Origin: Bacteroidota bacterium
GTDB taxonomy: Bacteria > Bacteroidota > Bacteroidia > Chitinophagales > Chitinophagaceae
Length of the DNA: 64,000 bases
Assembly: GCA_018267965.1 (NCBI GenBank)
Contig: JAFDXK010000005.1
Location: 372,001 to 436,000 of the forward strand
Direction: 5' to 3'
Made by a program: the position numbers and the translations under genes. The notes under the pieces were generated by a model, which saw only the letters and a program-made list of their open reading frames with translations, was not told the origin of the DNA and made no database searches. Shown one piece after another: positions 698 to 933 of the stretch (its first letter is position 1; each line of letters begins with the position of its first letter).

Positions 698-737
698 TGT
701 TGCATTATGTTGTCAAATGTTGCAAAATACTGCAACA
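698..737 (+). repeat. 10-base-period TGTTG array A, three copies plus inverted copy
   Basis: TGTTG starts at 698, 708 and 718, exactly 10 bases apart. TGCAACA at 731-737 is the inverse of TGTTGCA at 718-724, giving a 7-base inverted repeat with a 6-base spacer. Confidence 0.8.
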
Positions 738-790
738 CTTTCCCCTTACACATATAACTAATTGATTTTCAATAAAAAAGAAGCAGCTTT

Positions 791-838
791 TGTTGTAAAA
801 TGTTGTGTTTTGTTGCGGAATGTTGCGGATTTTGCAAC
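791..838 (+). repeat. 10-base-period TGTTG array B, four copies plus inverted copy
   Basis: TGTTG starts at 791, 801, 811 and 821, exactly 10 bases apart. The array ends in TTGCAAC (832-838), an inverted copy of the GTTGC core. The organisation is the same as array A. Confidence 0.85.
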
Positions 839-933
839 TCTGTAAACTTGGTGAATACTAAGGGTTTATGTCAAAGAACTCTGTATACAAATTTACAAAA
901 TTCAGTCCTGCCGGCCTAAAAAATACCCTATTA

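Follow-up and report, generated by a model that had tools for sequence, protein, structure and literature searches.

A dispersed bipartite array element in a Chitinophagaceae genome as a probable site of chromosomal small-terminase-family proteins

The window analysed here, a whole stretch of 64,000 nucleotides from a genome of the family Chitinophagaceae (assembly GCA_018267965.1, contig JAFDXK010000005.1, positions 372,001 to 436,000), probably carries a single representative of a dispersed, bipartite site bound by a chromosomal protein of the small terminase (TerS) family, a binding that we infer from sequence. The proposed site would consist of array A, a palindrome and array B, placed on one face of the helix over roughly 100–150 bp, and such arrays may be considered as pac- or cosB-like wrapping sites of the chromosomal TerS proteins.

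The element in the window and in its genome

The window locus includes the following features:

698–722, minus strand: array B, three TGTTG units with a 10-base period, which read CAACA on the minus strand
732–736, plus strand: inverted GCAAC copy, not general to the elements
761–773, no strand assigned: palindrome ATTGATTTTCAAT of the TTGANNNTCAA family, located between the arrays
791–825, minus strand: array A, four TGTTG units with a 10-base period
834–838, plus strand: inverted GCAAC copy, not general to the elements
862–880, minus strand: AGTTCTTTGACATAAACCC, boxA-like motif
878–898, minus strand: promoter-like box TAAATTTG, the box itself at 888–895, a weak copy

The TGTTG units start at 698, 708 and 718 and then at 791, 801, 811 and 821, and both these positions and the 10-base period given in the preliminary description are exact in the sequence. 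With up to three mismatches allowed, the three-unit pattern was found in 9 places of the window (shuffle mean 3.9, with 9 reached in 4 of 100 shuffles), and the exact three-unit places are three, all at this locus. The claim that such arrays exceed chance was confirmed in the whole genome (3.74 Mb, 13 contigs), where the pattern (TGTTGN5)2TGTTG gave 54 exact matches versus 2 for the reversed control. These matches are grouped into 27 loci, and because the loci lie on 8 contigs the iteron-like origin or partition element of one replicon, which had also been suggested, was rejected. The palindrome at 761–773, the common array orientation, the promoter-like box on the minus strand and the 26 further loci had remained unnoticed in that description.

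The 27 loci are intergenic by simple ORF calling, in which short ORFs (<160 aa) were disregarded, those overlapping the arrays at several loci being treated as spurious; the nearest right-hand start codon is 18 bp from the element (L014). Two arrays of at least three units in a single orientation are present in 17 of the 27 loci, a perfect TTGANNNTCAA palindrome adjoins the arrays in 13, and a CAACA pair followed by the palindrome was detected in 14 places genome-wide, with none in the reversed control. Read on the CAACA strand, the full element includes the promoter-like box ACGTATATTTGCTATAATAAA, at some loci a boxA-like motif, then array A, the palindrome ATTGANNNTCAAT and array B. The weak promoter box of the window is absent among the ACGTATATTTGNTAT promoter matches with at most one mismatch. 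The motif GTTCTTTGA..AACCC, which follows the promoter box in some elements, resembles a boxA antitermination signal; it was observed at L009, L010, L024, L027, L034 and L035 and in relatives at L157–L175, and TTCTTTGA or GCTCTTTGA occurs in 6 of the 27 own loci within the stretch shown.

The preliminary description regarded each array as closed by an inverted copy. Both copies in the window are real; however, GTTG was located within 20 nt of the array end in only 3 of 46 arrays (at least three units, 27 loci), two of the three being those of the window locus, versus 13% of random 40-nt pieces nearby which contain GTTG, and the inverted GCAAC was dropped as a general part of the element. A mobile element with terminal repeats was also rejected, no common ends being noticed among the own loci. 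Next to some elements (L016, L025, L027, L032, L034) there is another dispersed repeat family, about 65 bp long (TTATTCGCAT..TGATGATTTTCAATGGTATGCTCATGAGCTCGCTTCGCTCGGTTGTT), and the analysis also revealed further dispersed repeats of the forms CGTCATTGCGAGGGAATATCTG..CAGATATGGACAAAGCAATCTC and CCCCTC..GAGGGG (L016, L025, L032, L033; L139), one repeat of the latter type being inside the coding part of the TerS gene L139.

In the genus scan the three-unit pattern was identified in 7 of the 14 other genomes with 1–6 matches each, where the reversed control also gave some matches (G010, 3 versus 6 real ones; G011, 2 versus 6), and beyond the genus single matches were obtained in 3 of 24 genomes. 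A collection scan returned 10 stretches, 7 of them titled Bacteroidetes, Bacteroides or Chitinophagales; the remaining three (L057, L061, L065) belong to one MAG titled Azovibrio restrictus, and this title looks wrong. The three-unit GNAAC pattern was found 10 times in the window's genome (control 1), mostly in the same CAACA arrays, but this pattern had no power to separate genomes, as the other 14 gave 0–5 matches and the controls 0–3. CTARCA triplets were counted 10 times in G009 and 9 times in G014, with none in the other 13 genus genomes and none in the control.

Helical phasing and neighbouring genes

When the distances between CAACA units were measured in the array regions of 47 fetched loci, exactly 10 was obtained for 158 pairs and 5–9, 11 or 12 for none; these loci were chosen by pattern, which in part determines the distance of 10 but not the absence of the neighbouring distances. 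In the 19 own rows whose palindrome has no more than one mismatch, the last unit of array A is separated from the palindrome centre by 18, 27–28, 38–40 or 48, with one at 101, and the distance from the palindrome to array B is 26, 33–34, 43–45 or 53–57, with one at 104, the window having 28 and, from the palindrome centre to array B, 45. When tested for 10.5-bp phasing these rows gave R=0.91 between array A and the palindrome and R=0.75 between the palindrome and array B (0 of 20,000 simulated sets as high), and the 12 rows with perfect palindromes gave R=0.92 (none simulated as high) and R=0.73 (p=0.0009), respectively. As the distances fall into classes of about 10.5 bp, the arrays and the palindrome can be assigned to one face of the DNA; the earlier idea of a protein binding along one helix face is thus supported both within the arrays and between the arrays and the palindrome.

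All 25 own array pairs, far ones included, reached only R=0.40 (p=0.015), and seven non-redundant pairs of relatives had no phasing as a set (R=0.18, p=0.81), four of them, with a palindrome, fitting the phase and three, without it, not fitting. The distance from the promoter box to array A is out of phase (R=0.35, p=0.07, 21 rows). A first phasing run covered 22 of the 25 own pairs and 17 of the 19 palindrome rows, and the repeat run took all.

The palindrome may be a DNA-bending site. On the minus strand of the window copy AATCAATTAGTTA fits the IHF consensus, WATCAANNNNTTR; of 13 loci, 8 have an IHF-like match on the right side of the palindrome and 2 on the left side, the shuffled right flank giving a mean of 0.93 and a maximum of 5. 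In the proposed mechanism a TerS ring would present one helix-turn-helix (HTH) per subunit, about one DNA turn apart, the neighbouring subunits would read successive 10-bp units, and the DNA would bend at the palindrome, with both arrays wrapped on the ring. Comparable wrapping has been proposed for pac sites of the SPP1 type and, involving IHF, for lambda cosB.

An alternative origin of such repeats is a small RNA family, in which a transcript of the minus-strand promoter would expose unstructured CAACA repeats for binding a protein or mRNAs, as might be expected from the conserved promoter-like box and some boxA-like motifs located 5' of the arrays on the same strand. However, the helical phase kept by the spacings is needless for RNA, the arrays occur also inside TerS coding sequence and just past stop codons, and a search of Rfam at gathering score in 17 of the 27 own loci revealed no family near the arrays, a tRNA being the single match. 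Due to this Rfam result and the DNA phasing of the spacings the small RNA family was set aside and is considered quite improbable.

At 22 of the 27 loci (by reading) the gene to the right is transcribed away from the element, and at 5 it ends there; these genes, named from their translations, include recA, gyrB, parE, dnaE, aspS, metG, purL and other core genes. OmpR/PhoB-type factors use 10–11-bp direct repeats, and the elements could then be the regulon of a cooperative transcription factor which controls the nearby genes and is unrelated to TerS, in agreement with the prevailing gene direction, with the many core genes among the neighbours (recA, gyrB, dnaE, metG and purL) and with a single array near a start codon that two species retain at the same locus (L014, L050). 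Nevertheless, a regulon of one factor was set aside as unlikely because no functional theme was found among the neighbours of the 27 loci; the loci where the right-hand gene ends at the element also disagree with it, and a separate factor leaves unexplained why the motif differs from one TerS clade to the next and is located within or next to TerS genes, as described below.

Conservation of the copies upstream of orthologous genes, named in the preliminary description as a check, gave a mixed result. In 13 genus genomes compared upstream of dnaE (G003 and G005 omitted) at least a CAACA pair at lag 10 is present in 9, CTAGCA arrays are carried by G009 and G014, and neither motif by G007 and G008. 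Upstream of recA the CAACA element is present in the window's species and absent from all 9 other genus genomes compared (five more left out), a distribution which also speaks against the regulon, and two of these nine have GGAACA repeats instead. The same recA upstream regions (L066–L077) contain TGTGGATAA and TTGTACAAA-like boxes common to most genus genomes compared, possibly a damage-response operator.

TerS genes with the same promoter and arrays

The element promoter motif ACGTATATTTGNTAT was detected in 11 of the 15 genus genomes, and some of its matches are followed by orphan small-terminase-family genes instead of arrays. In the window's genome the motif with one mismatch gave 20 matches (control 6), which were sorted by hand: 17 have a CAACA array downstream on their own strand, at most about 340 bp away, 1 precedes the TerS gene L139 and 2 are near neither. 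This genome has two TerS genes, L139, whose start is 86 bp downstream of the promoter, and L153, which is short, divergent and without the promoter.

The L139 product matched the Pfam family Terminase_2 (PF03592) with 37.8 bits (cut-off 26.1, E 3.7e-9) and PHROG 51, terminase small subunit (8.8e-11); of five other genus proteins three were above the PF03592 cut-off, one was below and one was unmatched. A profile of 13 genus proteins retrieved from PDB three sequences at E ≤1, all of them small terminases (best 0.0033). The AlphaFold2 monomer of L139 is composed of three N-terminal helices (HTH), a long helix, a beta hairpin and a disordered tail, with pLDDT of about 90 over residues 1–130, and Foldseek ranks 1–16 were small terminases (SF6, PaP3), rank 1 alone having E <0.001 (best 4e-5), with TM-scores of 0.16–0.22 by query length. 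By sequence and modelled monomer fold this protein belongs to the small terminase family, and the model resembles the small terminase of SF6. No relatives of L139 were obtained from IMG/VR or the phage collection.

A protein search revealed TerS genes in 14 of the 15 genus genomes, 1–19 matches each and 77 in total, with no match in G003; the 19 small-terminase-like matches of G013 represent a high paralogue number. From the 77 matches 48 were read as genes (30, 2 and 16 of 18 stretches, two of which gave no gene by pattern; the TerS gene beside TerL in G013 is excluded), including 47 with a complete 3' end. The promoter test was limited to 30 of the 48: the promoter 21-mer was found at 16 or more of 21 positions upstream of 20 of these 30 genes, while the best control window reached 15.

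In the last 260 nt of the genes together with 110 nt past the stop, an exact 6-mer repeat at lag 10 was present in 30 of 47 TerS genes, compared with 3–12 of 47 at lags 6–9 and 11–15, where the genes include orthologues and are not independent. Lags are uneven by nature, because the 5' control around the start codon peaks at lag 12 (22 of 47) and lag 8 (15 of 47), with 10 of 47 at lag 10. A 10-bp-phased array of one of six motifs, which were named after inspecting these same genes, is carried inside the gene or up to 110 nt after it by 28 of the 48.

The motif is distributed by TerS clade: CAACA in 11 of 12 genes (clade support 100/100), CTATCA in 7 of 7, GTAACC in 4 of 4, CTAGCA in 2 of 2, TTAGCA in 2 of 2 and GGAAAC in one gene, and on the tree of the 28 motif-bearing genes there are 5 motif changes, the minimum for six states. 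This tracking of the clade by the motif makes TerS the likely binder of the arrays, a candidate that the preliminary description did not anticipate. The 20 genes without any of the six arrays include L152 of the CAACA clade, and L146, outside this clade, also has a CAACA pair. Within the CAACA clade seven genes have the pair in their coding sequence and four have it immediately past the stop codon, and since the reading frame differs between L139 and L038, the pair is kept as DNA and not as a peptide. Among the TerS genes read, CTAGCA occurs in those from G009 and G014, each genome having one CTARCA triplet at the stop of a TerS gene.

The ORF-less elements of these genomes contain the same units, such as GTAACC and CTATCA in G002, G006, G008 and G012. 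In G001 two promoter-anchored elements lack all six motifs, and in G004 and G011, which possess CTATCA-type TerS, the 2 and 3 promoter-anchored elements counted contain no CTATCA pair. The mechanism would involve several TerS clades, each with its own 5–6-base unit in or after its own gene and ORF-less copies elsewhere.

A given host locus may be occupied by a TerS gene in one species and by an ORF-less array in another. Upstream of a gene that is presumably DUF1835-like a TerS gene is present in six genomes and an ORF-less element in two; at purL the window's genome has the element and G009 and G014 have a TerS gene; and beside a gene which we take to be carbamoyltransferase-like G004 and G010 have a TerS gene and G009 and G014 a CTAGCA array. 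Together with the common promoter and array motifs this partial sharing of host loci would also be expected if the ORF-less elements were relics, i.e., TerS genes which lost their reading frame and are kept by inertia. Against such relics, identity between G009 and G014 orthologues (8 pairs) is 95% in the array block, versus 67% for the upstream and 84% for the downstream flank, although a part of the 95% is due to selection, as the arrays were found by pattern in both genomes; moreover, the layout of two arrays and a palindrome with quantised spacing is kept despite unlike spacers. The explanation by inertia is accordingly considered very improbable.

Phage-derived genes and comparison with known systems

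TerL matches with E 5e-33 or better were found in 11 genus genomes, the one of G008 having two stops; in the others, G003 gave two matches near 1e-29 with stops and G005, G009 and G014 weak ones only, so G009 and G014 combine TerS genes and arrays with weak TerL-like matches. This TerL resembles phage enzymes, the PBSX family among them, and its presence alone means little because 11 of 14 control genomes also contain the family. Within the genus the exact element promoter and TerL matches at this threshold occur in an identical set of 11 genomes, a coincidence which shared ancestry may explain. In G013 a TerS gene with the promoter is located directly before TerL.

About 45 kb around TerL in the window's genome contain a short TerS-like, a tape-measure-like and a portal-like gene, scattered among other genes whose first residues resemble those of lipoproteins; the cluster order is the same in G004 and the window's genome (by reading). 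The portal-like match was 1.6e-12 in G004 and 2e-7 in the window's genome, and the tape-measure-like match 2.7e-6. A capsid candidate had a model with pLDDT of 32 and no match in phages or IMG/VR. The stretches L204, L205 and L210 (C5, about 291–336 kb) with L208 and L212 of G004 form a candidate gene transfer agent (GTA) cluster. No CAACA pair at lag 10 was present in the six phage-cluster stretches scanned.

The purpose of the sites is less certain than their probable assignment to TerS: they may be packaging starts for a GTA-like particle, they may serve the hijack of a helper phage by single-gene units, or they may have a domesticated chromosomal role. In the first case the sites would mark the points from which a particle of phage origin takes up host DNA for packaging. 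An extended form of this idea, a gene-transfer system of the genus with addresses, is advanced only tentatively, as conceivable but rather doubtful: a domesticated particle, represented by chromosomally fixed TerL, portal and tail genes, would be loaded with host DNA beginning at dozens of dispersed phased arrays, each array set would be read by one of several TerS paralogues acting as adaptors, and chosen core-gene neighbourhoods would be exported in preference to others.

Recognition of sites by small terminases is disputed. For SF6 and SPP1 the available text of PMC4737164 describes a ring of HTH domains about one DNA turn apart, with a wrap of about 100 bp proposed, and reports little specificity of the SF6 DNA-binding domain for repeats. 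According to the accessible parts of PMC4737164 and PMC9611059, in vitro DNA binding by pac-phage small terminases is mostly weak and shows no sequence preference, and the latter review, as far as its available text goes, states that neither nucleosome-like wrapping nor threading explains sequence specificity. In this context the genus represents a natural series of five TerS clades (at least two genes each), each having its own 10-bp-phased unit, and one genome with 27 loci provides variants of one site with phased spacers, so that specific wrapping by multiple HTH domains can be tested directly. Should packaging also begin at the sites, the system would be chromosomal and its packaging start points defined. 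The available text of the literature searched does not describe orphan TerS genes accompanied by cognate arrays on the chromosome (PMC4737164, PMC6316719 and PMC12946183 included; few subscription journals).

Direct repeats in or near the terS gene are shared with the SPP1/SF6-type pac (PMC4737164, available text), and here repeats in or beside terS, a mark of pac and cosB, were found by both measures (30/47 at lag 10; 28/48 by motif); in contrast to these pac sites, the TerS genes here are scattered on chromosomes, the repeats keep a strict 10-bp period and about 27 copies are ORF-less. In lambda cosB (R3-I1-R2-R1) the TerS sites flank an IHF-bound bend site (PMC4856287, available text), and the elements similarly have repeats on both sides of a candidate bend site, while they differ in the many chromosomal copies, in a palindrome that is only IHF-like and in that no cosN is known here. 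By analogy, the elements appear to combine features of SF6/SPP1 and cosB.

A putative GTA of this genus would have, besides TerS, chromosomal TerL, portal-like and tape-measure-like genes in one order in two species, and RcGTA likewise has a small terminase, gp1, which is described as binding DNA weakly, with transfer being random (PMC6854486, available text), unlike the defined putative sites and several TerS paralogues proposed here. Phage-inducible chromosomal islands likewise have a packaging specificity of their own (PMC6739421, PMC9026076, available text), whereas the TerS genes of this genus look like single-gene units beside core genes, as viewed mostly over 130 nt upstream and 260 nt downstream.
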